A stretch of 64,000 nucleotides of DNA, taken from the NCBI RefSeq assembly GCF_034006445.1, contig NZ_JAVESS010000001.1, positions 248,001-312,000 of the forward strand, in the 5' to 3' direction. The position numbers and the translations under genes were made by a program. The stretch is from Desulfovibrio sp. GTDB lineage: Bacteria; Desulfobacterota; Desulfovibrionia; Desulfovibrionales; Desulfovibrionaceae. Below the pieces are notes generated by a model. That model had not been told where the DNA came from and did not search any database. It saw only the letters and a program-made list of their open reading frames with translations. This document shows positions 19,460-40,018 of the stretch, in pieces; the stretch's first letter is position 1, and each line of letters opens with the position of its first letter.

Positions 19460-22400
19460 CTATAAGGACTCTGCATGCCGTGCAGCGGCATCTATCATTT
19501 CCTGTGCAGTGTCTGCAATTGTGCTTATCAGCCCAACTTCTATATGGGTGCTTTCCGCCCCGTTGCCTGTCGGAGCCGGGGACGCCTTGTCCAGAAGCAG
19601 GTTATCAAGACTTCCGTCACCACTGCTAAGGCCCACATGGGCATACGGATCATCTGTTAAACTGCTTTCATCTGCCGACGGGCCTGCCTGTACTCCGTTA
19701 TCAGGCCAGTTCGACAAAACAGCGGCGTTTAATGCTCCGTGCTGCCCCTGGATACCTGAATCCGCCACAAGACTGTCGCCCAAACCGTCATGCTCATGCC
19801 CAGGATAGCCCTGATCGCTCTCGGCATGGTTTGTTCCGTGCCCCTGAGCCTGATGGTCGTGTGCGGGATCAAACAGAATCCCGTCATGCTCCACGCCAAA
19901 ATCGGCAAAGGCCGAAGGTGCGAAGTCATGTTCGTGTATGACGACCTCAATAGGCGGCTGCACGCCGTCAACGTAAGCAAAGAAGCTGTTCAGCCCCGGC
20001 CGGAGGTCATTCAGGTCGTCTATACCACCGAATTCTATCTTCTCCACACCCTTGAGGATGGAGTTGTTCAGCCCATTGAGCCATGAGCCGTATCGGGCGA
20101 TAAACTCGCTGAGGTCCGCAGCCTGAAGTATCAGGGTGTCGGCTCCCGCGCCGCCGTCAATATTCAGCGCGCCGGCACCGCTGATTGCGCCATCGATAAT
20201 GATGGTGTCATTGCCTGCGCCTGTAACTATCTGGTTACTTCCGCTGCCGCTGCGATAAATATCACCGTTAAGATGGATAACATCGCCTTCGCCGCCACTG
20301 ACGCTGTGCCCCAGAATGACGTTTTTTCCGGCTGTGGCATACATTGCATAATCAGCATTGATCTCCAGATTCAGGCCTTGCCCGCTGCCGGACTGTACTG
20401 TATTCGTGCCGCCACCAGCATTGTACATGCCGTAGGCCGTGCCGTGGGCACTTTCAGCGTTCAGATTGATGGTGGATCCGGTTACCGTGGCCTTGCCATC
20501 AAGAACTATGGCTGAAAGGTCGCCCTTGATAGTCATTGTGACGCTGTCGCCCGTAATGCTTGCCCCGCCCAAAACGCCATACGCCTTTCCGGCAGTGGAG
20601 GTGACATTCATGTCCACATCGCCGCCTGCGGTAAGTGTCTGCTTGCCGTTGCCAGTGGAGTAAAAACCCGCCGCCAAAGCGGCCTGGCCCTGGGCGGTAA
20701 CATCAATGGTGGCATCATGACCAACATTGATGATGTTGTCCCCGCCCCCCGAACCACTACTGGGTCTTGCAGTACTTTCCACACCTGTTGCCCGGCTGCC
20801 TGCGATCTCTCCCGTATTGGTTACGTTAAGGCTGAACGTATCAGAATTTATGGTGTTTGAAGCAATAGTCGAACTTCGGCCCTGAGCAAGCACGCCACTG
20901 GTATTGCTATTTCCACGCACAGTTATATCAACGTCTCCAGTAGCATTAATTATATTTTGCCCACTATATCTTCCGTCGTACGATGCCTCTATTCCCGAAG
21001 CATTAATAGTACCATCAGAACTGTATCCGCCATCTAACGTCACATTCACGCTCATGTCAGACACATCAATATTGTTTTTTCCATAACCACTGGCAATAAT
21101 GCCCTTTACATCATAGGCAGCGCCAGTTCCGGCCACATTAACGTTAAGAGCACCTTCTTTGGCGGAGATGTTGGCAACACCGCTGCCCGCTGCATCATAT
21201 CCACTAGTTATGATGCCTATGGCAGAGCTGGTTGAGGAATCTACATCAACATTGATATCCCCGTACTTCGCCGTGACGTTATTAACGCCTCCGTGAGTCC
21301 AGCCCACTTCAATCCCGGTAGCGCCATAGCTTACGCTACTGCCCTTCTCGGCGTGCACCTTGATGTTTATATCGTTTTCAGCTTCAACATTGGTAGTCCC
21401 TCTGGACCATGTGTTGATGCCAGCAGTCTGGTAGGTGCCCTTATCAACAATAAGGTTGATGTCACCTCCGCTCTTTAACGTAGTCACGCCTGTCAAGGTC
21501 ATGACCGCAGCGCTGGACTGACTGGCATTGGTCAGACGGACGTTCAGTTCGTCTTCAGCCGTTACGTTGATGGTGCCGTTGTACCAATTGTCCACAGTTC
21601 TGCCACTGGCCGACGTAAGATCAACGGTATTACCTTCTATATCGACCGTACCCTTGTCCGTCACATGAACTGCGCCGGATGAGCCTTTAATGCTCACGTC
21701 ACCGCCCTTAACATTAACAAGAGAATTTTCGCCTTCGGCATTAACACCGTAATAGGAACCGCCCTGAATGGTCACCTTGCCGTCATCTCCGGCATCAATG
21801 TAATTCTTGCCGCCAGCTAGGGAATCAACAGCATTTCTGTAGCTGGTAACAGTAATATCAGAGCCGTCCACACGGTTGACACCACCAGTCCCGGCAGACA
21901 TACCGGCTCCGTTGTTACCTGAGACGGTAATTTTTCCATCTTCTGCAGTAACAGTATTGCTGCCATTGGTAGCATACAGGCCATACTGATAGCCAGTGGC
22001 GCTGACAGTGGTGCTGCCCGTCGCGTTAATGGTATTACTACCGCCATTCACGGCGCTGGCTCCGGCATTGGGGCTGCTACTGCTACCGTAAACTGATATG
22101 CTGCCATTGTTTACACTGACAGTGTTTTCGCCACCGTCAGCCAACAGGCCGCTTGTTCCCTGTATGTTCACTGCGCCATCATTGCCAGTAACAGTGTTTT
22201 TTCCACTGCCCGTGGCAACGGCGCCAGCTCCCCCATTGCCTGTGATATCAATATGTTTGCCTGAAATGCTGTTAAGGCCGTCATCCGCGGCGCGCATGCC
22301 CGCGCCAGAACGCCCCAGAACCGTGATCTTTCCGTCTTCAGCGCTGACAGTGTTGCTGCCGCCGTCAGCCAGCATTCCCTCGCCGTTGTAGCTGTTAACG

Positions 22401-23989
22401 GTAACAGTGGCATTGCCCCGGCCTTCAAGAGTATTTTGTCCGCCTCCTGTGGCCTTGACCCCGACGAGACCATACGTTTGAGCCTTCAGACTGCCGTCTT
22501 CAGCAATAACATGATTCTTGCCGCCGCTTTCAGCCAGCAGGGCATAACCTCCGCCTTGAGTGGTCGTCAGAGTAACGTTGCCGCCCTTGCCATGAATGGT
22601 ATTGCTGCCGCCGCTTGAGGCAGTTACGAGGTTTTTGGCGCCCGAGATGGAGATGTCGTGGCCGCTGATACTGTTCTGGCCCTCATCTGCCATGACGGCG
22701 GTGGTGTTTCCCGCATTGGCAATACTTACAGCCCCCTTGCCCATATCAAGAATGTTGCCGCCGCCCTGCGCGGTGGCTGCAACGCCCTGGGCAATGGTGA
22801 GCTTGCCGTCGGATGACGTAATATGCGTCGTTTGGCCCGGTTGAGACGCCAGAACTCCCTGATTCAAATTGATGGTATTATAGTCATCGGCCATCTGTTG
22901 AGGATCGGCGGAACCGCTGGCATGAATGGAACTGCCGCCGATAACCGTGTCATTCAGGATTATTTCATCATTTCTGTCAGAAGATACTATTGAGTATGCG
23001 CCAGTTTCTCCCTTGCCCTGATGAAATTCACCTATGCCTTCCAGATTGGCGTGATCGCCGTAAAGGCTGTCGTGAGCAGAAGAATTAAAATCCTGGTTGT
23101 CTGTCGCGACGAGCTCAACATTGTATTCAAACTCATTGCCGGTATAACGGTCAGTCACCGTAACCTGAATAAAATCTATAAGTGGCTTGCCATCAGCACC
23201 CATGCGCTGCATCTCGGCAATGCCATCGGCTGTGAGGCGAAACTCCAGGCGTCCCGTGCTGTAGTCAAACGCTACGTCCACCCAGGTATTTTGCCAGCCG
23301 TCAGGCAAAGATATGGCAATGCCGTACTGCACCCAGGGAGCGGCCCCAGTAAAATCCAGGCTGCCAGCAGGAATTGCCAATGGAGGCTGCCCGTCTTCAG
23401 CAAAAAACACACTGGTGGTTACAGGATCATTGGTATTTCCGGGGTTGTACAGCACCGCACGCACAAAGGGGCCATCTGGGCGAGGCAAAGGGTCTGGCCC
23501 CGGGGCAGGAGGCACCGGCCCGGGGGGAGTGATGCCCCCGGAACTGGAACCGCCAGCCGCGGCAAGAGCAGAATCAAAAGCCAAATCGCTGGCTTGTGCC
23601 GTTGTTCCCTGTAAAGTCATATCAAGACCATCCAGGTGGTCAATGCCGTCAGAGAGATCAGCAGTGCCGTGCTCGGCATAATGGGAGCTTCGCTCCGCAG
23701 CCGAGGGGCCAGCCGCAGGAGCAAGGTCGGGAGCAAAAGTCGTAAAAAACTCCGCACTGGAAATAAGTTGTCCATCCACTTCAAATCCAGGGGCGTTTTC
23801 ACTGGAGTAAGCTGTATAAAAATCCGTGATGCTGACACTTGCACCATCATCAAACCGAAAAGTAAGGGTATTGCCTGCGCGCTCCAAGGTGGCTTGGCCG
23901 GAAGGAAAACCCAAAGTAATCTGGGAATTTTCGCCAGAAATTAGCGTGACATGCTGCCCGGCCGCAGGGCGGAGTATGGAAGTGCTCAT
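19460..23989 (-). CDS. Giant repetitive adhesin, probable type I secretion substrate
   Basis: This 1509-residue protein has an N-terminal module (about 1-110, ILRPAAGQ...FDDGASVSITDFY) that resembles the start of Desulfovibrio VCBS/T1SS giant proteins and has no Sec signal. A Pro/Gly linker (about 140-165), a beta-sandwich-like domain (170-290) and nearly 1000 residues of degenerate repeats follow, alternating GG-x-NT(I/V) with DGKITV strands, as in a right-handed beta-helix. Around 1280 a GAGNDTI...GGAGADTL pair resembles RTX calcium repeats. The tail is rich in His, Gly and Asp. The ATG at 23989 follows AGGAG by five bases. No secretion genes are adjacent. Confidence 0.82.
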   Translation of the reverse strand: MSTSILRPAAGQHVTLISGENSQITLGFPSGQATLERAGNTLTFRFDDGASVSITDFYTAYSSENAPGFEVDGQLISSAEFFTTFAPDLAPAAGPSAAERSSHYAEHGTADLSDGIDHLDGLDMTLQGTTAQASDLAFDSALAAAGGSSSGGITPPGPVPPAPGPDPLPRPDGPFVRAVLYNPGNTNDPVTTSVFFAEDGQPPLAIPAGSLDFTGAAPWVQYGIAISLPDGWQNTWVDVAFDYSTGRLEFRLTADGIAEMQRMGADGKPLIDFIQVTVTDRYTGNEFEYNVELVATDNQDFNSSAHDSLYGDHANLEGIGEFHQGKGETGAYSIVSSDRNDEIILNDTVIGGSSIHASGSADPQQMADDYNTINLNQGVLASQPGQTTHITSSDGKLTIAQGVAATAQGGGNILDMGKGAVSIANAGNTTAVMADEGQNSISGHDISISGAKNLVTASSGGSNTIHGKGGNVTLTTTQGGGYALLAESGGKNHVIAEDGSLKAQTYGLVGVKATGGGQNTLEGRGNATVTVNSYNGEGMLADGGSNTVSAEDGKITVLGRSGAGMRAADDGLNSISGKHIDITGNGGAGAVATGSGKNTVTGNDGAVNIQGTSGLLADGGENTVSVNNGSISVYGSSSSPNAGASAVNGGSNTINATGSTTVSATGYQYGLYATNGSNTVTAEDGKITVSGNNGAGMSAGTGGVNRVDGSDITVTSYRNAVDSLAGGKNYIDAGDDGKVTIQGGSYYGVNAEGENSLVNVKGGDVSIKGSSGAVHVTDKGTVDIEGNTVDLTSASGRTVDNWYNGTINVTAEDELNVRLTNASQSSAAVMTLTGVTTLKSGGDINLIVDKGTYQTAGINTWSRGTTNVEAENDINIKVHAEKGSSVSYGATGIEVGWTHGGVNNVTAKYGDINVDVDSSTSSAIGIITSGYDAAGSGVANISAKEGALNVNVAGTGAAYDVKGIIASGYGKNNIDVSDMSVNVTLDGGYSSDGTINASGIEASYDGRYSGQNIINATGDVDITVRGNSNTSGVLAQGRSSTIASNTINSDTFSLNVTNTGEIAGSRATGVESTARPSSGSGGGDNIINVGHDATIDVTAQGQAALAAGFYSTGNGKQTLTAGGDVDMNVTSTAGKAYGVLGGASITGDSVTMTIKGDLSAIVLDGKATVTGSTINLNAESAHGTAYGMYNAGGGTNTVQSGSGQGLNLEINADYAMYATAGKNVILGHSVSGGEGDVIHLNGDIYRSGSGSNQIVTGAGNDTIIIDGAISGAGALNIDGGAGADTLILQAADLSEFIARYGSWLNGLNNSILKGVEKIEFGGIDDLNDLRPGLNSFFAYVDGVQPPIEVVIHEHDFAPSAFADFGVEHDGILFDPAHDHQAQGHGTNHAESDQGYPGHEHDGLGDSLVADSGIQGQHGALNAAVLSNWPDNGVQAGPSADESSLTDDPYAHVGLSSGDGSLDNLLLDKASPAPTGNGAESTHIEVGLISTIADTAQEMIDAAARHAESL

Positions 23990-24579
23990 AAAAGCTCCTA
24001 GACTTCTGTTTCGTTCCATCAAACCGCATAGGAATTATGGAACGGGTTGCGATAATGTCTGGCACGCCGACATTATCATTCAGCCCGAATATTTCAGGTA
24101 TGGGTGATTTTTATCAGGATACAGAGAATGGTCTCTGTACGAGGAGAAACATGAATAAGGTATGTTCTCCCCAGATCTGCCATGCAAAAAGGACAGCACG
24201 GCGATCCATTAAATCGAATCAATTTACTAAGAATAAATCATAAAAATTATCAATACCCATTAGAGAATAACGCACAAAAAATATTTGTCAATTTTTGCAT
24301 CAAATTAGGCAATACTATGCACGGTCCCAAGCTTTGTTATTCTGGAGTTGATAAATCATCCCGAAAATTCTTCTGTTTTGCAACTATAATAGTTATATGA
24401 TTTTTTTCGGCATGAACGATAATGATAATGGAACAATTTATACGGACTTCGCCAATCACAGTGCGCTAAGCGCAATACCAGTTCATGCCCGGATTATTTC
24501 TGGCCATGAATCCCTTGCCAATCATGGCAAGGATATGATTGGCAAGGATTGCATGGTGTCGACGAATGCGGGTGGCCGA

Positions 24580-24881: not shown

Positions 24882-26240
24882 CTATGCCCGGGTAACGCTG
24901 GGGGGAATGCATGTATCAACCTGTACTGCCTTAGCCAATGAAAGTTCCTTTGTTTCCGGTGCCCAAAGCCATGAGACTATTGTTCCTATAAGGGTCACCG
25001 CGGCAAGAAGAATCATGGTCGATGAAACTCCCAGATGATACATACTCACAGGGAGGCAGAAGGTTGAAAGTGCCGAGCCAAAACGGCTTACGGCTGTGGC
25101 AAGGCCAATGCCGCTGGAGCGAACTTCAGTGGGGAAGCTTTCCGCCGGAAAAACGCCAACCAGGTTGCTTACGGCTGAAAGGGTAAGAGTGAAGGCCGCG
25201 AAAATGATTATCATCAGAACCGTCTGGTTGACGGGCAAGATGGCAAGACCGAGCAGGCCAACGGTCAGAATTATAAAAGAGTTAATTAAAAAGCCGCGCC
25301 TGGTGAATTGTATTGTGCACCAAATGCCAATAAGCGCCCCGACAATAAGCATGCAGTTAAGCAGCAAGCCAGTTACAAAGCCCTCCGCAATGTTCATCTG
25401 CTCCAAAATTTTCGGCAGGAACGTGTAGATAGCAAAGTAGGGCATCACAATACACACAAAGAAAATGCAGTTGAACAATGTGCGTTTGATGTACTTTCTG
25501 TCAAAAAGAACTTTATAACCCGTTGATTGATGGTGGTTAACAATTTCATCACCCAAAATAACATTGGGGCCAAAAACTTTGGTAAGCACGGCCTGGGCCT
25601 GTTCCGGGCGGCCCTGGTTTGCCAGCCAGCGCGGAGATTCCGGCGTGCCAATTCGGGCCAGACAGATAAGGATTGCAGGCACGCAGGGAGAAGCCAGAAC
25701 CCAACGCCATGCGTCATCACCCAGCATGCTGGATGAGAGCAGGGCCGTACCCACAAAGGTGGCTGCAACATAGCCCATGGTCCAGATAACGCTGAAGGAA
25801 CCAAGAATCGGCCCGCGGTGTTTTTTGGGGCAGAATTCTGCCAGGAGGGCATGCCCAACGCTGTAATCTCCACCAAGGCCGATACCCAGGAAAATTCGAC
25901 AAAGCGCCAGCTCTAGTGGTGTATTTACATAAAATTGAAATAAGGAACCCAGGGAAATAACAACAAAGCTGACGGAAAATATTTTTTGCCTGCCCAGCCT
26001 GTCGGAAATCCTGCCAAAAAAGAGGCTGCCGAGAAAAAGCCCTATCAAAGCAGAACTGCCAATAAAACCGCTCCAAAACGGGTCATTGCTGCCCATGTGT
26101 GCCGGGAGGCGGGTCATGGTAATTCCAATAAGGCCAAGAATGTATCCATCTACCAGGTGCGCCCCAAAAGTAAGCGCGGTAATTTTTAAATGAAATTTTG
26201 AAAGCGGCAGATCATCAAGAAGAACTTTTCCTGAACTCAT
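24882..26240 (-). CDS. MFS transporter (metabolite:H+ symporter type)
   Basis: This 452-residue protein has 12 membrane helices. GRISDRLGRQK in the loop between helices 2 and 3, a R-x3-G-x-GxGG block in helix 4, and PAESFPTEVRSSG in the second half are signatures of the sugar/aromatic-acid/organic-acid symporters. The ATG at 26240 has GGAG six bases upstream, which includes an alternative ATG at 26252. It is the distal gene of the catabolic block with malic enzyme, LysR, aldehyde dehydrogenase and aldo/keto reductase, and is a likely uptake system for its substrate, perhaps an organic acid. Confidence 0.9.
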   Translation of the reverse strand: MSSGKVLLDDLPLSKFHLKITALTFGAHLVDGYILGLIGITMTRLPAHMGSNDPFWSGFIGSSALIGLFLGSLFFGRISDRLGRQKIFSVSFVVISLGSLFQFYVNTPLELALCRIFLGIGLGGDYSVGHALLAEFCPKKHRGPILGSFSVIWTMGYVAATFVGTALLSSSMLGDDAWRWVLASPCVPAILICLARIGTPESPRWLANQGRPEQAQAVLTKVFGPNVILGDEIVNHHQSTGYKVLFDRKYIKRTLFNCIFFVCIVMPYFAIYTFLPKILEQMNIAEGFVTGLLLNCMLIVGALIGIWCTIQFTRRGFLINSFIILTVGLLGLAILPVNQTVLMIIIFAAFTLTLSAVSNLVGVFPAESFPTEVRSSGIGLATAVSRFGSALSTFCLPVSMYHLGVSSTMILLAAVTLIGTIVSWLWAPETKELSLAKAVQVDTCIPPSVTRA

Positions 26241-26454
26241 GATAAACTCCATAAAATTATGAGGGTAGGTACAATTTACACAGCCTTGGTATCCATTATT
26301 ACGTTTATTGGTTAATATTTGCGCTGCCTACGTGAATCTGGGCTATTGGATCACTGCAGTTTGCTACTTTTTCAGGCAGTCTTCAGCCTGCTTTCAGGTC
26401 AGTTTTGTCTGACCTTCATGCTGCGCGTTACTTGCCATCAATTGTGTCAGCTTC

Positions 26455-26633: not shown

Positions 26634-27953
26634 TTACTTCGTATAAGAAGACACAACGCTGCCAATACGTTCATGGGCCGCACAAATCCTTTCTTGAAGT
26701 GAGGCCGCGTACGCCCTCATGTCAGAAATCGGATTGCGTGCAACCCCAGAATCCATCGCTGCTCTGGCAACCGCTGGGGCGACAACCGCCAGCAAGCGTG
26801 GGTCAAGAGGTTTGGGGATTACGTAGTCCAACCCATACTGAAAGGATTCATTGCCGTAGAGGTTCTTGAGCTCTGCTGGCACTGGCTCTTTTGCCAGGGC
26901 AGCCAGGGCGAAAACTGCGGCCATTTTCATTTCTTCGTTAATCTGGGTTGCTGCGGTGTCGAGCGCGCCACGAAAAATGAAGGGAAAGCCGGAAACGTTG
27001 TTCACCTGATTGGGATAATCTGAGCGGCCCGTTCCCATGATGCAGTCCGGCCGGGCTTCTTTGGCAAGTTCGTAGCTGATTTCAGGATCCGGATTGGCAC
27101 AGGCCAACACAACCGGAGTGTTGGGGTGCATGTTTTTGACCATTTCCGGAGTAAGCAGGTCTTTTGAAGAAAGCCCCAGAAACATATCTGCGCCTTTTAA
27201 TACTTCCTCCAGGCTGCCAGCATTCTTTTCCTGTGCGAATTCGGTCTTGTAGCGATTCAAATCGCTACGTTGTTTGTGGATGAGACCTTTGGAATCAAAC
27301 ATAAAAAGGTTCTCAACCGTTACGCCAAGGGCTGTGTAGAGCTTTGCACAAGCAATACCTGCAGCCCCTGCCCCCACAATAACCACCTTCATATCCGCCA
27401 GCTTCTTTCCGGCAATATCAGCAGCATTAATAAGGGCTGCACCCGAAATAACCGCTGTACCGTGTTGGTCATCATGAAAAACCGGTATTTTCATTCTGGC
27501 CTTGAGCTGTTCCTCAATATAAAAGCATTCCGGAGCCTTTATATCTTCAAGGTTAATGCCGCCGAAGGTGGGCTCCAGCAGAGTGACGGATTGAATAAAT
27601 GCATCTGCATCTGTGGTATCAAGCTCCAGGTCAAAAACATCAATGTCTGCAAAGGCTTTAAAGAGCACTCCTTTGCCTTCCATTACGGGCTTGCTTGCAC
27701 TGGGGCCAATATTGCCCAGCCCAAGAACCGCCGTGCCGTTGGTAATAACGCCAACCAAATTGGCTTTGTTGGTGTAGGTTCCACTAAGGGAAGCATCCGC
27801 ATAAATAGCTCGACAGGCTTCTGCAACGCCGGGGGAATAGGCAAGGGCCAGGTCATTCGGAGTTGAACAGCTTTTTGAGGGTAATACTTCAAGCTTACCC
27901 GGCCTCGGCCTTGCGTGGTAGAGAAGTGCATCCTGAGAAGAAGTCTTTTTCAT
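26634..27953 (-). CDS. NADP-type malic enzyme (single-domain)
   Basis: This 439-residue enzyme would decarboxylate malate to pyruvate with reduction of NAD(P). Catalytic Y39 (LAYSPGV) and K94 (EGKGVLFK), metal ligands E136 and D137 (EDIKAPEC) and D162 (HDDQHGT), and the nucleotide fold GAGAAG (194-199) are present. Unlike MaeB it lacks the C-terminal phosphotransacetylase domain. The start has GGAGG nine bases upstream. It would act downstream of the divergent fumarase/aspartase-like lyase, feeding fumarate-derived malate to pyruvate; that link is inference. Confidence 0.93.
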
Positions 27954-28018: not shown

Positions 28019-28052
28019 AAAAGCACTACATATAACAAAGCAGTGCTTCTTT
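28019..28052 (-). terminator. Terminator overlapping the LysR gene end
   Basis: On the minus strand AAGCACTGC pairs with GTAGTGCTT, followed by TTATTATTTT. The hairpin includes the last codons of the LysR gene, which ends at 28026. Confidence 0.65.
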
Positions 28053-28931
28053 TGAAATCCACTCGCAAAAGGCTTTGGCCATCTCGGACTGCCCCGGAGA
28101 AGTTTCTTCAAACCAGTATTTAAAGGGAGTGGTCACTGGCTCGCCCAGCGTAATAAGAAGCTTCTTTTTGAGCGCCAGTGAACCTAGGTTGGTATCGAGC
28201 ATAACCACGCCCAGCCCTTCAATGGCTGCGTTCATAGCCTGCTCCTGCGTGCTGAACTCCATTCCACTATTCAAGGCTGTAAGGCTTGGCACATACGAAC
28301 TGTCTGGGGATCTTTGCATCCAGTATTCCCAGTAAGGCAGCGGAGTTATGCCAGAAAGGGTATGAAGAATCGGGACGCTGTTTATGCCTTCTTTGCGGAT
28401 TTTATCCAGCAAAACCGGCGCGCAGACTGGCTGGATAAGTTCTTCAAAAAGCAGCTTGCCGTTAAGTGCAGCCATGCCACTGTGACCAAAGAAGACTTCA
28501 CAGTCGTACCCCCCAAAAGCCGTGGAGCCAGAAGTCGCAGGGGATGAGCCGTCCGTGTAGAGTGAGACAGCGCATTTTGTCTGCTCATAAAAGGTGACCA
28601 GGCGCGGGGCCAGCCAGCGTGTTGCAAATGAAGGAGGGGTCTTTACCGTAACTCTGTATCGCGGTCCGGCTTGCAGATGCTCAATACAGTCGTTAATTTC
28701 GGACAGTTTTTTGTGTAAAACCTGATGGAGCTCTCGCCCTGCTTCTGTCAGGCATAATCTGTTTTTCTGCCTGACAAAAAATTTTACATCCAACAGGATT
28801 TCAAGAGACTTAAGCTGGCGGCTTAATGCGCTTTGGGTGATGCAAAGCTCCCTGGCAGCAACTGTTACGCTGCCATGCCTTGCGATGGCTTCAAAGGCCT
28901 GTAAAAGCTTTGTATTCGGAAACATTAGCAT
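28026..28931 (-). CDS. LysR-family transcriptional regulator
   Basis: This 301-residue protein has an N-terminal winged HTH (residues 5-62: SVTVAARELCITQSALSRQLKSLE) and a substrate-binding-like effector domain. It sits in line between malic enzyme and aldehyde dehydrogenase in the catabolic block rather than divergent from it. A second ATG at 28925 is equally possible; the ribosome site is weak. It probably regulates the surrounding genes and the divergent lyase. Confidence 0.9.
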   Translation of the reverse strand: MLMFPNTKLLQAFEAIARHGSVTVAARELCITQSALSRQLKSLEILLDVKFFVRQKNRLCLTEAGRELHQVLHKKLSEINDCIEHLQAGPRYRVTVKTPPSFATRWLAPRLVTFYEQTKCAVSLYTDGSSPATSGSTAFGGYDCEVFFGHSGMAALNGKLLFEELIQPVCAPVLLDKIRKEGINSVPILHTLSGITPLPYWEYWMQRSPDSSYVPSLTALNSGMEFSTQEQAMNAAIEGLGVVMLDTNLGSLALKKKLLITLGEPVTTPFKYWFEETSPGQSEMAKAFCEWISKEALLCYM

Positions 28932-29037: not shown

Positions 29038-30534
29038 CTAGAATGAAGTCAAAATACTTTTCACCTGCGTGAAGGCTTCCATGGAATGAATACCCATTTC
29101 ACGGCCCAAACCGCTTTGTTTCACGCCGCCAAAGGGAGCTGAAAAGTCATACTGCCCGTATTTATTGATAAAGATTTGCCCGGCCTGCAGTTCTCTTGCC
29201 ACCGTGTGGGCGCGGGCAAGGTTGGCGGTATAAAACCCTGCTGCCAGGCCGTATTCGGAGTTATTGGCAATTTCAATTGCCTGTTCGTCAGTCTTGAAGG
29301 GGAAGAGGCAAAGCAGCGGGCCAAAGATTTCTTCCTGGGCCAGCCTGCAGTTCGGGTCAACATCGCCATAAATGGTTGGCAGAACATAAAGCCCTTTGGC
29401 GATTTCACCTTTTTTCTCAGGCATTCCACCACAAAGCTTGTTCAGGCCAATGCGCTCGGCCTCTTCAAGGTAGCCGACAATAGATTCAAAATGGGCGCGG
29501 TGGCATTGGGCGCCCTGCTGGGTTTCAGGCTTGAGCGGATCACCCAGGCGGTAAGCCTTGGCCTTGGCAACGAGCTTTTCTGAAACTTCCTTGTAGATGG
29601 ACTCATGAATCAAGAACCGGGTCGGTTCCGTGCACTTTTCACCTTTTTGTGAAAACATTACATGGAAAGAACGGTTGATGGCTTCATCAAGGTTCGGGGT
29701 GTCTTCAAAGAAGATGCAAGGAGATTTTCCGCCAAGCTCAAGAGAAAGAGAGCGCAGGTGATTCTTCCCGGAATTTTCCATGATTTTTTTGCCGACCACG
29801 GTACTGCCGGTAAAGGAAATCTTGTTGACCTTTTTGGAAGTAGTCAGCGCATCACCAACGGCACGGCCCTGGCCCAAAACCATGTTAATAAGGCCGGCAG
29901 GAAGTTTTACCCTTTCAACCATCAGTTCCATAAAGCGGATAAAGCTCAGCGGGGTATAACTGCTTGGCTTTATAAGAACGGTGTTGTTGGCAGTAATGGC
30001 CGGGGCGAGTTTCCACATGGTCATAAGCAGGGGGAAGTTCCAAGGAACAATCAGCCCGCAAACGCCAAGCGGCTCGCGCACTATGTAGTTTAACGAGCCA
30101 TACCCCACCGGGCCAAGCTCGCCGTAAAATTTATCTGTCCATCCCGCGTAATAGTCGAAAACATCGGCAGAATCCGGCAAGTCGTCATTAAGAGACTCCA
30201 GGAATGTTTTGCCGTTTTGCAAGGTTTCGATCAGCGCGAGTTCTTCGGTATTTTCACGAACAACCTCGCCCAGTTGGCGCAAAAGACGGGCGCGCTCACG
30301 CGCGGGAAGCTTGCCCCAGGTTTGCTTTTTAAATTCGTCCTCAGCGCTGTCAATGGCGCACTCGAGCTGCTTCTGGCTAAGCGCAGCGTATTCACAGATT
30401 TTTTCTTCAGTGGCAGGGTTATAGAGGGTTATTGCTTCCCCTTCACCAGAAACCCATTGACCGTTAAAGTAACTTTTCTTTTCCTGTTTAAGCCATTTTG
30501 ATACACGCTCGAATAGAGCTGGTGAAACCTGCAT
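29038..30534 (-). CDS. NAD(P)-dependent aldehyde dehydrogenase
   Basis: This 498-residue member of the ALDH superfamily oxidises an aldehyde to its acid. N166 (PWNFP), the general base E266 (LELGGKSP) and the nucleophile C301 (KGEKCTEP) are in place, as is FTGST in the cofactor fold. The residues around C301 differ from the usual GQCC context, so the substrate class is unclear. ATG at 30534 follows AGGAG by five bases. It lies 170 bp downstream of an aldo/keto reductase gene on the same strand. Confidence 0.93.
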   Translation of the reverse strand: MQVSPALFERVSKWLKQEKKSYFNGQWVSGEGEAITLYNPATEEKICEYAALSQKQLECAIDSAEDEFKKQTWGKLPARERARLLRQLGEVVRENTEELALIETLQNGKTFLESLNDDLPDSADVFDYYAGWTDKFYGELGPVGYGSLNYIVREPLGVCGLIVPWNFPLLMTMWKLAPAITANNTVLIKPSSYTPLSFIRFMELMVERVKLPAGLINMVLGQGRAVGDALTTSKKVNKISFTGSTVVGKKIMENSGKNHLRSLSLELGGKSPCIFFEDTPNLDEAINRSFHVMFSQKGEKCTEPTRFLIHESIYKEVSEKLVAKAKAYRLGDPLKPETQQGAQCHRAHFESIVGYLEEAERIGLNKLCGGMPEKKGEIAKGLYVLPTIYGDVDPNCRLAQEEIFGPLLCLFPFKTDEQAIEIANNSEYGLAAGFYTANLARAHTVARELQAGQIFINKYGQYDFSAPFGGVKQSGLGREMGIHSMEAFTQVKSILTSF

Positions 30535-30704: not shown

Positions 30705-31724
30705 TTATACGTAAGGCGTTTTTGCCGGGCGTACTTCACGCGGGATGCGGCACTCAGCGTTGTAGTCATTAATGTGGTCACGGGGTGTGTAGTTGCGACT
30801 GATTTCGTAAAGGTCTTCATCGCTCAGCAAGGGCATATCCAATGCGTTCAAAGCCGAATCAAACTGTTCGGTTTTGTCTGCGCCAACAAGCATTACATCA
30901 ATGCCGGAATGTTGCAGTACCCATGCCTGTGCAATCTGGGCTGGCGGTACCCCGTGACGTTTGGCAACACGGTTTACTGACAGGGCAATTTCCTTGGAGA
31001 TGCCATCGCCAAACATTTCGTGGGTGAAAAAATCCGTTGTGTTGCGATTGGAGGAAAAGTCGCAGGAGAGAATGCCCCGGGCAAGCGGGCTGAAAGCAGA
31101 AACGCCGACCCCAGCATCCTGGCAGAACGGGATCATTTCCCGTTCTTCTTCACGGTATGCGGCGCTCAGTTGTAACTGCATGTTGACAGGTTTGTGCCAA
31201 CCGTTTTTTTCAGCTGTGTAATAGATCTTTGCAAACTGCCAGGACATCATGGTGGAGCAGGCCAGATAGCGCACCTTGCCGCTACGCACGAAGCTGTCCA
31301 TTGTTTCCCAGAATTCTTCAACAGGTGTGCTGGTGTCATAATAATGGAGCATGTATATATCAACATAGTCCATTTTAAGGCGCTTAAGGCTGCCGTTAAG
31401 GGCATTTTCAAGGTGAACACGAGAGTGCCCGCCGTTATTCACTCCGCCGCCAATGGGGTATCCAACCTTGGTGGCTACAACCACTTCATCGCGCGCCGTC
31501 ATGCGACGCAAAATGTTGCCGCAAACTTCTTCATTGGCCCCTGTTGAGTAAAAGTCAGCAAGGTCAATAAAGTTTACACCTTTTTCAAAGGCATACCTGA
31601 CAATCAGTTCACTTTCCTTTTCATCATAAATCCATGGCTTCCATTGTTTACTGCCCATGTTCATGGTGCCAAGGCACAATCTTGAAACATTTAATCCTGA
31701 TCTGCCAAGTTTGGTATACTTCAT
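30705..31724 (-). CDS. Aldo/keto reductase
   Basis: This 339-residue TIM-barrel oxidoreductase has the complete catalytic tetrad D54, Y59, K86 and H126 (IDLADFY, ATKVGY, MLHYYD). It would interconvert a carbonyl and an alcohol with NADPH. The start has AGGAG eight bases upstream. It is the first gene of the minus-strand catabolic block and is divergent from the lyase-fusion gene 1 kb away. A weak AAAGAG/CTCTTT hairpin with a T run follows it. Confidence 0.92.
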   Translation of the reverse strand: MKYTKLGRSGLNVSRLCLGTMNMGSKQWKPWIYDEKESELIVRYAFEKGVNFIDLADFYSTGANEEVCGNILRRMTARDEVVVATKVGYPIGGGVNNGGHSRVHLENALNGSLKRLKMDYVDIYMLHYYDTSTPVEEFWETMDSFVRSGKVRYLACSTMMSWQFAKIYYTAEKNGWHKPVNMQLQLSAAYREEEREMIPFCQDAGVGVSAFSPLARGILSCDFSSNRNTTDFFTHEMFGDGISKEIALSVNRVAKRHGVPPAQIAQAWVLQHSGIDVMLVGADKTEQFDSALNALDMPLLSDEDLYEISRNYTPRDHINDYNAECRIPREVRPAKTPYV

Positions 31725-32737
31725 AACTTAAACTCCTGAAGTAAGGTGGTTAAAATGGTTACCAAAAATGTTAGGTGCAGAATGTCGGGGCAATGCCCCT
31801 GTATACCTCCCCCTCAGCAAGTTTAGTAGCTTGCCAAACCCGCGTCGGGGGTATCTGTTGGCTAACCGAATGGGCGCTTCGACAGCATTGCTGTCGTCTC
31901 ACGGGCCGCTCGACTGATGCGTATGCTGGCACATGCCTTGTACACCCCAGCCCGAACGCATCGCGAGCAAACCTTGCAACCTCCCGCTTTTCGGCTGGCC
32001 GTAGACGTAATTGCAATAATCTCCTTCAAGACCTCATGCTTAGAGCCTAGGCGAACATGCGGTTGGCCCTGGGGTCTTTCCCCGTAAATTCCGGCCTTGA
32101 CTCTTCCGTGCCTGGATTTTTCATTTGCCAAACAGATTCTGGACTCATCGCATTCCCGCCACTCGTACGGTTCACCCGCCATTTGCGATTTTCAGTATTG
32201 AACGGTCAGGTTTTCAGTGAACTGAGATTCCTGCGATCTTTTCTGATGGGCTGTTTCCCTGAAATATCCGACAATTACTGAGCCTGTTTTTGTGGTGATT
32301 AATTGCCACAGAGTCAGGCGAATAACGGGTAAAGTGATACCGAGATATGCGCACAAAAAAAAAGGTGTTTCGATTGATAGCACTATATGGAGTTTTAAAC
32401 GGATGTATATTGCTTTTTTGGAACGCCATCTATTCCGTAGGGGAATAGATGGGAGGTTTGATTATTTTGTACCCATAAGCCAAAAAGTATGTTAGGATTA
32501 CACATTCTGTATCGTTCAATTATGAGGCTGTATATTTACCTGTAGTTAGGTGTTAGACGTTTGCCTTGTAACGCACGAGTTCTACCCACTAGTACAACCA
32601 TCTGGTTGTGGGTAGTTGTGATCAGGCATTTTACGTGTTTAGGCATAAAATTGGTGAGCATTGCTTAAGCCCTCTCGGCTACATACTTCTCTGGGCACCG
32701 CATAGCCACCCAGTCACCCGCCTGTAGGGAGGAAAGA
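31725..32737. other. 1 kb intergenic region, nothing recognised
   Basis: It divides the catabolic block from the lyase-fusion gene. Frames of up to 106 codons exist on the minus strand (31862-32182) and 91 codons on the plus strand (31775-32050), but they are mutually antisense, without ribosome sites. The 31780-32200 part is GC-rich with a CGACAGCATTGCTGTCG palindrome at 31875-31891, unlike the AT-rich 32200-32600 part, so it may be a relic insertion. Confidence 0.4.
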
Positions 32738-35584
32738 ATGTCAGTTTTGCATACCGTGGGGTTACGCAGGGAAAGTCTTCAGGATCGCATCTTTCACAGC
32801 TATTTTATTGGCAGCAATTTGTTGGCTGCACAACATACGCAAAGGCCAGGCCAGCATCAAAGTCCGGTTGGGGCCGACCCGTTTGCAAGCTCATTCCAGA
32901 TTGACAAATATTTTATTGCCTTTTGCGATAGCTCATTAAGAGAAGGCAGCAAATCTGAAATGCTGCTTCAGTTCCCGCTGCCTGCGTTTCAAATCTCCCC
33001 GCCAGCATCGCTTGTAAGGAGCTTCCCCAAGCTTCCAGGCATGTTCATTTCAAAGCTTGAGGTTTCCAAACTGACGGTTGAGGAGGTTGTTTATCATTCT
33101 CCGCTGCTGTTGGAGCTTTCCATACCAGCAATAAAGGCCAAAGCCTGGCTGGCTGTTGCTGCACCACATGTTGTCGGTGGGCTTAACAGCACTAGAGTCG
33201 CTGTGCCGTCTGGGAGTGTTTCCTGGTTTGCTGATGTTTCTGATAAGGTTTGCGCCGCTAAAGCACTGGCGCAGGCCCAGTTGCTTATTGCTGCTGCCCA
33301 CTTTTCAAGCCTGCCGCCTGTGGGGAGTGCCGTTGTTGTTTCCTGCCCCCTGGAGAATAAAATGAACGCGTTGGGGCAGGTTGCGCAGGCACTTGGCTAT
33401 CTGGGTTGCGGCCCGTTTGCCCCACTGCACGGGATCGCCCCGGATGAGATGAACGAAGCTTTTTTGGCCGAGGCTGCACTATGCAGCATTTATAGTCAGG
33501 ATTTTTGCAATGCTTTTGAACTTGGCAGGCAGCAAGAAAATATAGATGCCCTTTATGGTGATGATTTGGCTGCTGTTTCAGACCTTTCTTCGTGTATAAA
33601 CATAGCAACAGCCACGCATGCCGCCCTTGCCTTTATTGCCAGGGGCAGTGCGCCGGATTTGAGCTTTGGGGTAAGAAACGCGGGCAGCTTTATTGCCCGC
33701 GTGAAGCTTTGGGCTAAAGAATACGGACTTTCACAGGCGTTGCTGCTCCATGCCGCAGCACAGGCAGCTCTGTTTTCGCAGGAATCTGTTCTCGCCGTGG
33801 AGCGGTTTGAATACGAGTTGGAGTGTTTTTGCCGCATGGGTGAGGATATCGGCAGTCACCATAGCAGGCCTGAATCTTCTGATAGTCCCGATTGTTATGG
33901 CGAGGCAGGTAGTTCTGGCGGGGGCAACGCTTGTGGCAGGTCTGAGCGCTCAAATCAATCTGACGATTCAAACTGGTCTGATGATTCTGGCGTGAGCGAT
34001 GACTCTGCCTGTCCTGACAGCTCAAACCGGGCCGACAGCCTGATATGCCCTGATATTGGCCTTACAGCCCTCAACCTTCCGGCTGGCGGCATTCGGCTCG
34101 AAACTGACTCCGTAGGAAGTATTCCTGTTCCGGCGCATGCCGCTTATGGCTCACAAACTGAACGCAGCATTCATAACTTTGCAGTTGGCAGCGCCCCCAT
34201 TGGGCAGAACAGAAAATTTGTAAGGGCAATGGCACTGGTGAAGCTGTGTGCGGCAGAAGCCAACATGCAAACCGGAATGCTTGACGAAGTCAAAGGCAAG
34301 GCCATTACGCAGGCTGCGCGAGAGGTTATGGCAGGTTTGTGGGATGACTCCTTCCCTGTGGATACCCTCCAGGGTGGCGGCGGGGTTGGCATGAATATGA
34401 ACATAAACGAGGTTGTTGCGTACCGGGCATCTTCCATTATGCATGGTGTTTTGTCTGGAAAGGCAGATCTTGCCCTGGTCCATCCAAATGATGACGTCAA
34501 TATGTGCCACTCAACAAATGACCTGGTGCATACAGCCATGCATATTGCTTTTTTGCAATGGACTGATGAGCTGCTAGAAAAAATGCGCAATCTTGAAGGA
34601 GTTTTCAATCGCCTGGCCACACAATTTTCTGAAACAGTAAAGCTTGGTAGAACCTGCCTTATGGATGCATTGCCCATTACAATGGGACAGCAGTTTTCAG
34701 GCTATGCAGCCTTTGTCAGCAGGCGCAAAAAGTCGCTTGAAGCCATGAAGGAAGAGTGCCTCCACTTGGCAATGGGGGCAGGGGGGATTGGCACTGGCAT
34801 TGGCGTCTCCCCTGGTTTTCTGAAAAGTTTTTTTGAGGTGCTGTCGCAGCATGAGGGCGTTGCCTTTAAACCCGCAGCCAATTATTTTGACGCGCTACAA
34901 CACACAGATTTTTATATTGAACTGTCTGCGCAACTCAAGGCTTACGCCACCGGGCTTTCAAACATTGCCCGGGATTTGCGATTGATGGGTTCCGGGCCGC
35001 GAGCGGGCTTTGGTGAGCTTGTTTTGCCCGCTGTTCAGCCAGGCTCGTCCATTATGCCAGGCAAGATAAATCCTTTAATACCAGAGCTGATAAATCAGAT
35101 TGCTTACGTTGTATGCGGAAATGACACGGCCGTCAGTTTTGCTTCAGAGGGAAGTGACGTTGATCTTAATGTGTGGGAAGCTGTTTTTTTGCAGGGCATA
35201 AGCAGCTCTTTCCAGCTTTTATGCAATGGGACTGCAATATTCACCGACAAATGCCTGGAAGGGCTGAATGTCAATGCTCAAAAATGCAGACAGCACGCTG
35301 AAACTTCCCTTGCCTTGGCCACTGTTATATCGGAAGTTTTTGGATATAAAAAAGGTGTTGAAATTGCGGGTATTGCCGTGCGTGAAAACTGCAGTATCAA
35401 GGAGGCAGCCGTTAACAGCGGGCTTGTAACGACTGACGCCGCAGAGCTTTTGCTTGATCCGGCCCTGCTTACAGAAAGAGATAAATACGCTGAGATAATT
35501 GACGCTTTTAGAAGGGGTAGAAGTACTCCTCCAAATTCGGAAAGGCTTGATTGCCATACCACCACGCAAGAAGTGCATAAATGA
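32738..35584 (+). CDS. Fumarase/aspartase-superfamily lyase fused to an unknown N-terminal domain
   Basis: This 948-residue protein has an unrecognised region at residues 50-370, then a Ser/Asp-rich linker (375-435). Residues 450-930 form a complete aspartase/class II fumarase-type lyase, with STND (592-595), the GxSSxMPxKxNP signature GSSIMPGKINP (769-779) and a catalytic loop serine. In the GRTxLQDA motif the position held by His in fumarases and Gln or His in aspartases is Cys (GRTCLMDA, C640). GGGAGGAAAGA immediately before the ATG is a very strong ribosome site. Ordinary family members are 460-480 residues. Lyase substrate is uncertain: aspartate, fumarate or an adduct. Confidence 0.82.
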   Translation: MSVLHTVGLRRESLQDRIFHSYFIGSNLLAAQHTQRPGQHQSPVGADPFASSFQIDKYFIAFCDSSLREGSKSEMLLQFPLPAFQISPPASLVRSFPKLPGMFISKLEVSKLTVEEVVYHSPLLLELSIPAIKAKAWLAVAAPHVVGGLNSTRVAVPSGSVSWFADVSDKVCAAKALAQAQLLIAAAHFSSLPPVGSAVVVSCPLENKMNALGQVAQALGYLGCGPFAPLHGIAPDEMNEAFLAEAALCSIYSQDFCNAFELGRQQENIDALYGDDLAAVSDLSSCINIATATHAALAFIARGSAPDLSFGVRNAGSFIARVKLWAKEYGLSQALLLHAAAQAALFSQESVLAVERFEYELECFCRMGEDIGSHHSRPESSDSPDCYGEAGSSGGGNACGRSERSNQSDDSNWSDDSGVSDDSACPDSSNRADSLICPDIGLTALNLPAGGIRLETDSVGSIPVPAHAAYGSQTERSIHNFAVGSAPIGQNRKFVRAMALVKLCAAEANMQTGMLDEVKGKAITQAAREVMAGLWDDSFPVDTLQGGGGVGMNMNINEVVAYRASSIMHGVLSGKADLALVHPNDDVNMCHSTNDLVHTAMHIAFLQWTDELLEKMRNLEGVFNRLATQFSETVKLGRTCLMDALPITMGQQFSGYAAFVSRRKKSLEAMKEECLHLAMGAGGIGTGIGVSPGFLKSFFEVLSQHEGVAFKPAANYFDALQHTDFYIELSAQLKAYATGLSNIARDLRLMGSGPRAGFGELVLPAVQPGSSIMPGKINPLIPELINQIAYVVCGNDTAVSFASEGSDVDLNVWEAVFLQGISSSFQLLCNGTAIFTDKCLEGLNVNAQKCRQHAETSLALATVISEVFGYKKGVEIAGIAVRENCSIKEAAVNSGLVTTDAAELLLDPALLTERDKYAEIIDAFRRGRSTPPNSERLDCHTTTQEVHK

Positions 35585-37032: not shown

Positions 37033-37419
37033 TCAGCGGTTCGTGGAAGTTTGTTTTATGTCTTCTTCAAGACGCCGCACGCATTCAATAATGCCGCCCA
37101 GTTTAAACGGTTTTGCCACAAAATCAAAAGCCCCCTTGCGGAACGACTCCTTGGCGCTATCCAGCGTTGCAAAGCCGGTAATGACCACAATGCGCGCCTG
37201 CGGCAACAATTCCCGCGCACGCTCCAGAACCTGAAAGCCATCGGCTCCTTCCATCTTGAGGTCTGTAATAATCACATCAAAAGTCGTTTGCGTCATGCGG
37301 TCCAGAGCCGCGGCACTGTCGGTGAACGTTTCCACATAATAGCCGGATTTCTGAAATGCCGGCTTAAGCCGCTTGCAGACAATGGGTTCGTCATCAAGCA
37401 CCAAAATGCGCAGCGTCAT
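37033..37419 (-). CDS. Single-domain response regulator
   Basis: This 128-residue protein is a bare receiver domain: acidic pair in LDDE, phospho-acceptor Asp in IITDLKM, and Lys in AKPF. There is no output domain. AGGAGGGGAGCACA precedes the ATG at 37419; the start lies within the end of the pyruvate-dikinase-like gene (26-bp overlap). Its first residues, DDEP-VCKRL, are shared with the NtrC-type regulator at 43911, which suggests common ancestry and perhaps a common kinase. Confidence 0.92.
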   Translation of the reverse strand: MTLRILVLDDEPIVCKRLKPAFQKSGYYVETFTDSAAALDRMTQTTFDVIITDLKMEGADGFQVLERARELLPQARIVVITGFATLDSAKESFRKGAFDFVAKPFKLGGIIECVRRLEEDIKQTSTNR

Positions 37420-40018
37420 TGTGCTCCCCTCCTGTATGCCCGGTGTGTCTTGCCGGAAGTGTGGGTGTGATGGCCTCCATAAAGGCCTGCACGTGCTCGG
37501 CAATCAGTTCGTCGCTGTTCATGCGTGCATCAAGCTGGCGGGCGTAGCCCACAAGGCCGCCAAGCATGTGCAGACGCACCCGCATGCGCGGTACGGAGAG
37601 TTTTTTTATTCTGCCCACTACCAGGTCGCCGTGCACTTCTACACGAAAGTCAAACCTGTCCAGCACGTCCGCCACAAACCGGGCCCGCCGCGAGCGCCGC
37701 ACCAACTCCGTAACGCCGCCGAGAAAGCGAAAGTAGATGTAGTTGTCGTTAATCTGCTCGGAAACATAGGCGTCGATGGTATTGTAATGGTAGCCAAGGC
37801 GCATGTTGACGTTCATGTAGTCGCGCAGCGCCACGGCTAGATTGCGGCCTACGGAGTCCGGCCCGGCCATGGAGGCCGTGAAGGTGCGGGTAAAGCTGGA
37901 CATAAAGCTGCCAAGGTCTACCGGCACGGGAGCTGTGTCCCACATGCCAGAGGTTGTCATTCCCTGCAGAAAGGTCAGCAGGGGGACTGAGGTAATTTCT
38001 TGCATGTTCAGGGCTGTCGCTTCGGGCGCGCAACTGGTGCCGCCGCCGGCATCTATGATGGTGAGGCCCAAGGGTGGGCCGTCTACCAGCCGACGGGCCG
38101 GGGCTTGGTGCAGGGCGTCGTGCCGCTGGCTGAGCGCCACCAGCGCCTCAACGGCTTTTTCGTGAATATAGCGGGCGATGTCGTGGTAGGTTTTGCACGC
38201 CTGTGGCTTGAAATCGTCCGAATGCGGGTCCACAAGGTTGAGTGGCGCTATGTGCTTGAGCAGCCTGCGCAGCAGCCGATATTCATAGGATTCCTCAAAC
38301 ATGTCCGGCTCTGCGCGCTCAAACCTGTCCAACTCAGCGACGCGCCCCCGGTAAACCACGTTCTGCGTTGCATCAAGGGTGATTTCATCACCGTTGCGCA
38401 GCAGACTGGTGGCGTCTTCCGTATTGACCACGGCGGGAACGCGCTGCTCGCGGGCAATGGTTGCCATGTGGCCGGTGGGCGAACCCACATCGGTGATGAT
38501 GCCGCAGGCGCGGCGCATTACCCGTGCGTAGCGGGGTGAAGTGAACTTGGAAACAAGAATGCCGCCCTCAGGGAACTGGTCGAGATCCGTATTGTGGTCA
38601 ACCAGCACAACCTTGCCCACCGCAACGCCGCGCTGCGCCACAAGCCCCTTGCCGGCAAAAATAACTTCCGCCTTGCTGGTGGCGTCCTGAACCGGCACGG
38701 ACAGCCCCGCATCGCCGCCAGACCATAATGGGCGCGACTGCAAGATGTATAGTTCGCCCTGGGCGTCGAATGTCCACTCCACATCTTGCGGGCGTTTGTA
38801 ATAACGCTCAAGCGACATGCCCACCCGGGCAAGCTGTTCCAGTTGCTCGTCGGTAAGGCAGGGAATGGTTTGTAACTGTTCTGGAACATCCTCCCACATA
38901 AGGTCGCCTCTGGGGGCGGGCGCAAGCCTGCGCGTTTTGCGGGCCACGGCGCGCGTCAGCGGCGGATAGGGGGGAGTGCGGCTTAAAAATATGGTGTCAG
39001 TGGCGGTTTCGCCGGAAACAACGGCAGCGCCTCCGCCCCAGGCGGAGCTGACCACCATGGACTCGCACCCCGTGCCGGACTGTTGCGTGCAGGTAAAAAG
39101 CACGCCGCTGACGCGGCTTTCCGCCATAACCTGACAGCCAACAGCCATGGCCACTTCGTTCTCGTGGTACCCCCGGTCAAGGCGGTAGCGCCATGCTTCC
39201 ATGGAGTAGGTACTGGCGATAACGGTTTTATATGCTTCAACCACCCGATCTGGCGGAACATTCAGCTCTGTGGCGTACTGCCCGGCAAAACTGGAATCGC
39301 CATCTTCGCCCCAGGCGCTGCTGCGCAGGGCAAGGCGCAGGGGAGACTGGGGGCGGCGCACGCTCAGCGCGTTCACCATGGCGTCTATCCGCGCTACAAG
39401 CCGCCAGGGAAGGGGAGAATCCATGATGCGCGTCTGCATGAGGTCGGCCAGTTCGTGCAGGCTCTGATCTGTGCCGTCCCATTCCTCAATACTATTTTGG
39501 GCCAGTTCCAGCAGGCCGTTGCGCGACATGAAGGTAAAAAAGGCCGTGGTGGTGATAGCAAAGCCGTTGGGCGTCTGCAGGTGCAGACGGTTTGAAAGGT
39601 CGCCAAGCTGCGAAATCTTGCCGCCCACTTCATCCTCGGCCTCTATGCCAATATCCTGAAAAGGCAGTACCATGGGGCCGTCTTTTGTATGGCGGCGACC
39701 GGCGAGTTCCTCCTGCAAACGGTGCTGAATGCGCTCAAAAGCCAGAAACAGAGCCGTATTTTTATTCTGCGTGAGTACGCTCATGTCAGAGATGAGCTTG
39801 AAAACCTGGTCGTCGAGCTGAGAGGTCGCGTCTTCAATATATTTGCTGTCAAAGATATACTCGCCGCCAAGCTTGTCGCCCATGTCGGCCATAAGCTCAA
39901 GAATGCGGTTATTGCGCTCAAGAATGTTCTTGAACTTTTTGAACAGCAGGGCAAAGGTCACGCCTTGCTCGTTGCGCCAGCCTGTCAGCATGCTGGCCAT
40001 GCGCGCCAGAATTCCCAC
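37394..40018 (-). CDS. PEP synthase/pyruvate-phosphate-dikinase-like protein without the TIM barrel
   Basis: This 874-residue protein has a helical N-terminus (1-120), an ATP-grasp PPDK_N domain (about 130-435, with RSSAWGEDGDSSFAGQY near 232-248) and the swivelling phosphohistidine domain (455-560) with catalytic H517 in SPTGHMA. The expected pyruvate-binding TIM barrel with its C-terminal Cys is absent; instead there are 300 residues of unknown fold. So it can probably autophosphorylate but may pass phosphate to another partner. GTG at 40018 follows GGAGG by five bases. It is followed by the response regulator in the same operon. Confidence 0.85.
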   Translation of the reverse strand: MGILARMASMLTGWRNEQGVTFALLFKKFKNILERNNRILELMADMGDKLGGEYIFDSKYIEDATSQLDDQVFKLISDMSVLTQNKNTALFLAFERIQHRLQEELAGRRHTKDGPMVLPFQDIGIEAEDEVGGKISQLGDLSNRLHLQTPNGFAITTTAFFTFMSRNGLLELAQNSIEEWDGTDQSLHELADLMQTRIMDSPLPWRLVARIDAMVNALSVRRPQSPLRLALRSSAWGEDGDSSFAGQYATELNVPPDRVVEAYKTVIASTYSMEAWRYRLDRGYHENEVAMAVGCQVMAESRVSGVLFTCTQQSGTGCESMVVSSAWGGGAAVVSGETATDTIFLSRTPPYPPLTRAVARKTRRLAPAPRGDLMWEDVPEQLQTIPCLTDEQLEQLARVGMSLERYYKRPQDVEWTFDAQGELYILQSRPLWSGGDAGLSVPVQDATSKAEVIFAGKGLVAQRGVAVGKVVLVDHNTDLDQFPEGGILVSKFTSPRYARVMRRACGIITDVGSPTGHMATIAREQRVPAVVNTEDATSLLRNGDEITLDATQNVVYRGRVAELDRFERAEPDMFEESYEYRLLRRLLKHIAPLNLVDPHSDDFKPQACKTYHDIARYIHEKAVEALVALSQRHDALHQAPARRLVDGPPLGLTIIDAGGGTSCAPEATALNMQEITSVPLLTFLQGMTTSGMWDTAPVPVDLGSFMSSFTRTFTASMAGPDSVGRNLAVALRDYMNVNMRLGYHYNTIDAYVSEQINDNYIYFRFLGGVTELVRRSRRARFVADVLDRFDFRVEVHGDLVVGRIKKLSVPRMRVRLHMLGGLVGYARQLDARMNSDELIAEHVQAFMEAITPTLPARHTGHTGGEHNDAAHFGA

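Follow-up and report, generated by a model that had tools for sequence, protein, structure and literature searches.

The window (the whole 64,000-nucleotide stretch analysed here) carries on its forward strand an open reading frame encoding 948 aa (32738..35584), which runs from an ATG without internal stop and has a good ribosome-binding site (GGGAGG, 32727-32732) 5 bases ahead of this ATG. Pfam assigned Lyase_1 to residues 461-794 (1.3e-78) and FumaraseC_C to residues 860-912 (3.9e-9), with zero matches before residue 461. The translation is composed of an N-terminal region without recognised domain (residues 1-371; 32738..33850, +), a Ser/Asp-rich linker (residues about 372-439; 33851..34054, +) and an aspartase/fumarase-fold lyase domain delimited by Pfam, NCBIfam and PDB alignment (residues 452-912; 34091..35473, +); the source genome has three Lyase_1 genes in total. 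Divergent from this gene, on the reverse strand, family scans and sequence comparisons identified an aldo-keto reductase (AKR, 30705..31724), an aldehyde dehydrogenase (ALDH, 29038..30534) with the signature KGEKCTEPTR found by pattern search, a GcvA-like LysR-type regulator (28026..28931), a malic enzyme (26634..27953) and an MFS transporter 52% identical to E. coli YgcS (24882..26252). The intergenic region between the two arms (31725-32737) is about 1 kb long, compared with roughly 0.2 kb (estimated from ORF starts) in the related genome G178; it has neither Rfam nor plasmid match, and a 451-base part of it is single-copy in the genome. Further out on the reverse strand, a PEP-synthase-like protein (37394-40018) contains PPDK_N and a mobile PEP-utilizers domain without match to the C-terminal PEP-binding domain, near a response-regulator ORF, and a 1520-aa frame with a TTG start (19460-24022), which matches neither Pfam nor NCBIfam, could be a large protein or a spurious frame.

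A fused gene with a fast-evolving N-terminal region

The same architecture was found in G178, a genome of the same family and of a different genus, whose fusion protein (P0002, 917 aa) is encoded in a single continuous frame with an aligned start and with neighbours collinear with those of the window; among the 347 other genomes of the order it is the only other carrier. Since this architecture is shared at 28% identity in the N-terminal part and 60% in the lyase part, the fusion is genuine and old enough to have diverged, its front half being fast-evolving, and the ORF is neither a chance frame nor a joining artefact. A frameshift joining two genes, envisaged in the initial annotation, is thus not borne out, given the continuous fused frame of G178; the Ser/Asp-rich linker described at the same time is present in the window and absent from G178.

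The N-terminal region is restricted to this pair in all collections searched. With the single protein as query, 348 genomes of the order yielded G178 as the sole credible homologue (E 4.6e-14), the matches in 27 other genomes all being at 0.0098 or weaker, and a profile built from the two sequences recovered the same two genomes out of 348 and, in a 247-genome sample of the phylum, the source genome only. No homologue was found among all ORFs of the fetched loci beyond the source genome and G178, and plasmid searches gave zero matches. Searched at E up to 10, Pfam gave nothing for this half (MAAL_N, 0.1 over 28 residues, is below cut-off) and the PDB profiles gave at best a viral glycoprotein H at 0.027, which is not credible. 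Two candidate identities were rejected: AllH (PF11392), for which the profile match failed and of which G178 carries a separate copy elsewhere, and MmgE/PrpD, for which profile comparison was negative; comparison with the lyase also revealed no similarity (probability 0.2%). The view that this half is unlike known domains therefore stands after the Pfam, PDB and lyase/AllH/PrpD comparisons, and the profile search proposed along with it has been run without finding a known domain. The fold prediction proposed at the same time was run by AlphaFold on residues 1-388 alone, as a single sequence, and reached a pLDDT of 35, too poor to judge the fold. This half constitutes a new protein family, possessed by just two of the searched genomes; it diverges far more quickly than the lyase, which in its unfused forms manages without it, hence our guess of an accessory or assembly role.

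A conserved catabolic cassette

The lyase gene belongs to a conserved catabolic cassette (AKR, KGEKC-type ALDH, malic enzyme and MFS or BCCT transporter). All five divergent genes of the window are collinear in G178; the AKR is 62-84% identical to other cassette AKRs (G178 84%, Ensifer 66%, Vibrio 62%) and the MFS transporter is 69% identical to that of G178 and 58% to that of Priestia. G238 has an unfused version with lyases A (476 aa) and B (405 aa), ALDH, Zn-alcohol dehydrogenase, BCCT transporter, malic enzyme and IclR regulator, most of these genes being identified by eye from the sequences; its malic enzyme extends over two overlapping frames (L154:7934-9183), possibly by frameshift or assembly error. 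On plasmids, the cassette comprises lyase, ALDH, Zn-alcohol dehydrogenase, MFS and IclR in Priestia; lyase, ALDH, AKR, ABC transporter and LysR in Ensifer, with DhaKL and an SDR nearby; and ALDH, lyase, AKR, LysR and BCCT in Vibrio pelagius. A Peribacillus plasmid has a partial cassette, with a nearby ALDH devoid of the KGEKC signature. In this last case (Peribacillus sp. R9-11 plasmid pA, L162:8914-11472), one annotated CDS contains both a B-type lyase and a BCCT transporter; this CDS is a fusion or truncation join and a direct physical link between lyase and betaine-type transporter. These plasmid lyases come from the best 12-15 of about 360 records in each search, some of which were opened, Vibrio being reached via its ALDH; scans of genome and viral contigs gave ordinary lyases or nothing among the matches listed.

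The signature KGEKC[ST][EA]PT is present in 6/6 cassette ALDHs and in neither of the two other ALDHs compared, and a stricter DNA pattern for KGEKCxEPT occurs in three of 327 genomes of the order, exactly the three that have this lyase. G238, Vibrio and Peribacillus have BCCT (betaine-type) transporters in their clusters, the window and G178 having an MFS transporter instead. An MmgE/PrpD epimerase partner is neither annotated in the Ensifer and Vibrio loci nor visible by eye among the ORFs of G178 and G238, and the scanned neighbours in the window belong to other families.

Part of the cassette also exists on its own. In Caballeronia, homologues of the AKR and MFS transporter adjoin an ALDH scoring above the cut-off for succinate-semialdehyde dehydrogenase (699 for 646), at a locus with zero annotated lyases, and Burkholderia multivorans has the same AKR-ALDH-MFS order without lyase (further Caballeronia and Burkholderia records were seen as search matches only). 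In Caballeronia grimmiae (L188:5847-10305), a formaldehyde-activating-enzyme homologue is clustered with the AKR, the succinate-semialdehyde-type ALDH and the YgcS-like MFS transporter.

Amine-side positions of the lyase domain

Consistent with the initial assignment of the C-terminal half to the aspartase/fumarase family, FumaraseC_C is accompanied by a Lyase_1 score of 265 bits (curated cut-off 27) and by the catalytic loop GSSxMPxKxN, as GSSIMPGKIN. The nearest NCBIfam models are those of aspartases and fumarases, every curated cut-off being above the score obtained: 487.6 bits for 510 with NF008909 (aspartate ammonia-lyase), 420.8 for 681.2 with TIGR00839 (aspA) and 423.6 for 664.75 with TIGR00979 (class II fumarase, fumC_II). 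The closest solved structures in the PDB search are aspartases, and all matches fall in the aspartase/fumarase superfamily, none having a HAL/PAL-like fold.

In AspB numbering, taken from the alignment to 1j3u with positions counted by hand off the printed alignment and completed by our motif table, V550 (34385..34387, +) and C640 (34655..34657, +) are equivalent to the amine-side Thr101 and His188, T639 to Thr187 and S592/T593/N594 to Ser140/Thr141/Asn142, and the SS loop QPGSSIMPGKINPLIPELI (35036..35092, +) contains the catalytic Ser770 (Ser318) together with Lys776 (Lys324) and Asn778 (Asn326). Two amine-side residues of aspartase, Thr101 and His/Gln188, are therefore both replaced, Asn142 being retained as Asn594. 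Compared with aspartate ammonia-lyases (AspA/AspB), with which it has the fold, the dicarboxylate-side residues and the SS loop in common, the window lyase thus differs by its scores below cut-off, by Val and Cys at these two positions, by its N-terminal fusion and by its catabolic cassette; with class II fumarate hydratase it shares the fold and the catalytic loop but not His188 or Thr101. In AspB, Thr101 has an amine-side role and the retained dicarboxylate-side residues have carboxylate roles. For the other two amine-side residues, an AspB redesign study describes His188 and Asn142 as interacting with the amine group (PMC11744663).

The motif table gathers distinct lyase ORFs from the fetched loci, leaving out the frameshifted Leisingera lyase and 5 further rows dropped for gaps. 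The eight lyases picked as cassette members by their neighbourhood (Peribacillus being the partial case) all combine Val/Ile at 101 with Cys at 188; Asn142 is replaced by Ser or Ala in 5/8 and retained in the window, G178 and G238 lyase A. Thr101 and Asn142 are kept in 123/123 other distinct aligned ORFs, which may include a few shortened copies of one gene as do other rows (8 VSTNTCSKN rows represent 3 proteins), and position 188 is occupied in these 123 by His (73), Gln (45), Cys (4) or Glu (1). Dicarboxylate-side and catalytic positions are kept throughout, except for one Ala at 141 and one Phe at 318 in non-cassette rows.

It had initially been proposed that a Cys in a GRTxLQDA motif suggests an altered substrate. 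The Cys is confirmed, in a motif that reads GRTCLMDA, the Gln being also replaced by Met; taken by itself, it would be a weak argument, because four related lyases without cassette carry the Cys and yet keep Thr101. We consider the joint loss of Thr101 and His/Gln188, with which the gene neighbourhood agrees, as a stronger sign of an altered substrate, so that the proposal is upheld on broader grounds. Indeed, a dicarboxylate machinery kept intact, with Val/Ile and Cys in place of the residues that hold the amino group, fits a substituted succinate whose leaving group would not be ammonia; the retention of Asn142 in A-type lyases makes a partly amine-like leaving group possible.

In a tree of 28 rows, twelve Cys188 lyases lie on one side of a branch (97/93) and sixteen aspartases and fumarases on the other. 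The cassette members split into an A and a B group, some branches being long, and these groups together are not one clade excluding the Photobacterium, Shinella and Rhizobium lyases. Against the fusion profile, G238 lyase A scores 499 bits and the next-ranking lyase among the genomes of the order 427. A GRTC-type DNA pattern was found in two of 299 genomes in the phylum of a Lachnospiraceae genome; one match (G778) is an otherwise normal aspartase and the other, according to the ORF listing, is not a lyase. Cys188 alone was dropped as a diagnostic since the G778 aspartase has it without cassette; this lyase (L159:9506-10939) has a normal Thr101 with GRTCLQDA and adjoins amino-acid ABC transporter genes.

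Candidate pathway and competing explanations

We propose, with a probability of roughly 0.4, that this aspartase/fumarase-fold carbon-heteroatom lyase ends a short catabolic pathway by expelling a group X other than ammonia, the leading candidate for X being trimethylamine. Briefly, the transporter would import a 4-hydroxybutyrate bearing X on C2; the AKR (the Zn-alcohol dehydrogenase in other genomes) and the ALDH would oxidise C4 to a carboxylate, giving a substituted succinate whose C3 proton is acidic because C4 has become a carboxylate; the lyase would remove this proton and expel X by its SS-loop serine chemistry to give fumarate, which would reach pyruvate through malate and malic enzyme. 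A C4 omega-hydroxy-acid substrate is supported by the pairing of AKR and MFS transporter with a succinate-semialdehyde-type ALDH in Caballeronia, and the presence of BCCT transporters in three of the cassettes suggests a betaine-like compound, which the AKR/MFS pair does not require, as it occurs without lyase in Caballeronia and Burkholderia multivorans. The leading candidate would be N,N,N-trimethylhomoserine (homoserine betaine), converted to N,N,N-trimethylaspartate and then to fumarate and trimethylamine; this specific substrate is a guess from the anatomy of the clusters, made because a glycerol-linked C4 betaine alcohol is what a betaine-lipid headgroup would be. No paper on such a pathway, with trimethylamine released by the lyase, was found among the matches listed in the open-licence literature searched.

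Known systems offer partial precedents. Ergothionase releases trimethylamine from a betaine (ergothioneine) by non-oxidative elimination; it is a HAL/PAL-like protein and not an aspartase/fumarase (PMC13405746). The Acinetobacter carnitine cluster (CntA/CntB, MSA-DH, MDH, BCCT, LysR) releases trimethylamine and takes the C4 unit to pyruvate (PMC11353897); it differs from the window cassette in cleaving the C-N bond by an oxygenase, without lyase and without AKR.

A somewhat unlikely alternative is a C-N lyase for N-substituted aspartates, of iminodisuccinate/EDDS type, from which a secondary amine would leave while AKR and ALDH degrade the other half. Iminodisuccinate and EDDS C-N lyases belong to the same superfamily, their leaving group being expected to be a larger amine than ammonia, and the iminodisuccinate epimerase is an MmgE/PrpD protein. 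Cys188 is shared by the nearest non-cassette relatives (Photobacterium, Shinella, Rhizobium ACO-34A and G778), which cluster with the window lyase (99/99 for 6 rows, G778 being left out), and the Photobacterium lyase adjoins an ORF that we take, from its sequence, to be MmgE/PrpD. These relatives keep Thr101, however; no PrpD-like gene is visible beside the cassette members, and a quaternary or sulfonium compound is suggested by the BCCT transporters of three cassettes. In Photobacterium sp. DA100 itself (L164:10001-14142), the Cys188 lyase is followed by MmgE/PrpD-like and permease-like ORFs, read by eye, and perhaps belongs to an iminodisuccinate-type system.

Ordinary catabolism of a C4 hydroxy acid, with water leaving (2,4- or 3,4-dihydroxybutyrate to malate, the lyase being a fumarase), would suit the malic enzyme, the YgcS-type MFS transporter and the stand-alone AKR and succinate-semialdehyde-type ALDH of Caballeronia, but is improbable: malate would reach malic enzyme directly, making the lyase unneeded, and fumarases keep Thr101, Asn142 and His188 (62 TSSNTHSKN rows), which are changed here. 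Carbon-sulfur cleavage, in which the lyase would act on a sulfur-substituted succinate and release a thiol or dimethyl sulfide, seems quite improbable; a hydrophobic/Cys pocket would agree with it, as would BCCT transporters, which also carry sulfonium compounds such as DMSP, but sulfur genes were not seen in the cassettes read and we know of no natural C2-sulfonium 4-hydroxybutyrate. Finally, the N-terminal half is very improbably a degenerate second lyase replacing lyase B, despite its similar length and the lyases A and B of G238 where the window has N-terminal region and A, as it resembles the lyase in neither profile comparison nor catalytic motif.

Returning to trimethylamine as the candidate leaving group, its release would give a textbook enzyme fold a new reaction and would add to the microbial sources of a disease-linked amine, which here would derive from the betaine lipids of algae and fungi and not from choline or carnitine; whatever X, the cassette is a testable pathway in Pseudomonadota, Bacillota and the family of the window. 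In betaine lipids, trimethylhomoserine is ether-linked to glycerol (glyceryl-trimethylhomoserine headgroup). In Vibrio and Priestia the cassette adjoins an FAD oxidoreductase (52-57% identical to YgcU of E. coli), an SDR (60-68% to YgcW) and an FGGY kinase (38-44% to YgcE). We raise, as an unlikely extension, an oxygen-independent stripping of the headgroup, in which YgcU/W/E-like enzymes would cleave the glycerol ether and release N,N,N-trimethylhomoserine before AKR, ALDH and a trimethylamine lyase of aspartase fold act on it. The Vibrio FAD enzyme has as best PDB match an enzyme of ether lipids, alkyl-DHAP synthase (1e-46), and as best NCBIfam match GlcD, below cut-off; the former likeness is ambiguous, since ETF genes adjoin the module in Enterococcus and Ilyobacter, which suggests an ordinary dehydrogenase. 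In Enterococcus the module is also found with a glycerol-3-phosphate-responsive antiterminator and an osmoprotectant ABC transporter, and in Streptomyces clavuligerus with the antiterminator. A close YgcU homologue is absent from the window genome, G178 and G238, where the pathway would start at the free alcohol. If true, this route would be an undescribed pathway with a new class of aspartase-fold trimethylamine lyase, and would point to a function for the E. coli ygcQRSUW-yqcE-ygcE cluster, to which the cassette is linked and whose functions are putative. In E. coli K-12 (ygcP to ygcE, L192:8197-17375), the ygc cluster corresponds to the module that adjoins the cassette in Priestia and Vibrio but has no lyase/ALDH/AKR cassette next to it; ygcS, taken by itself, occurs in 5048 of 5426 E. 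coli genomes.
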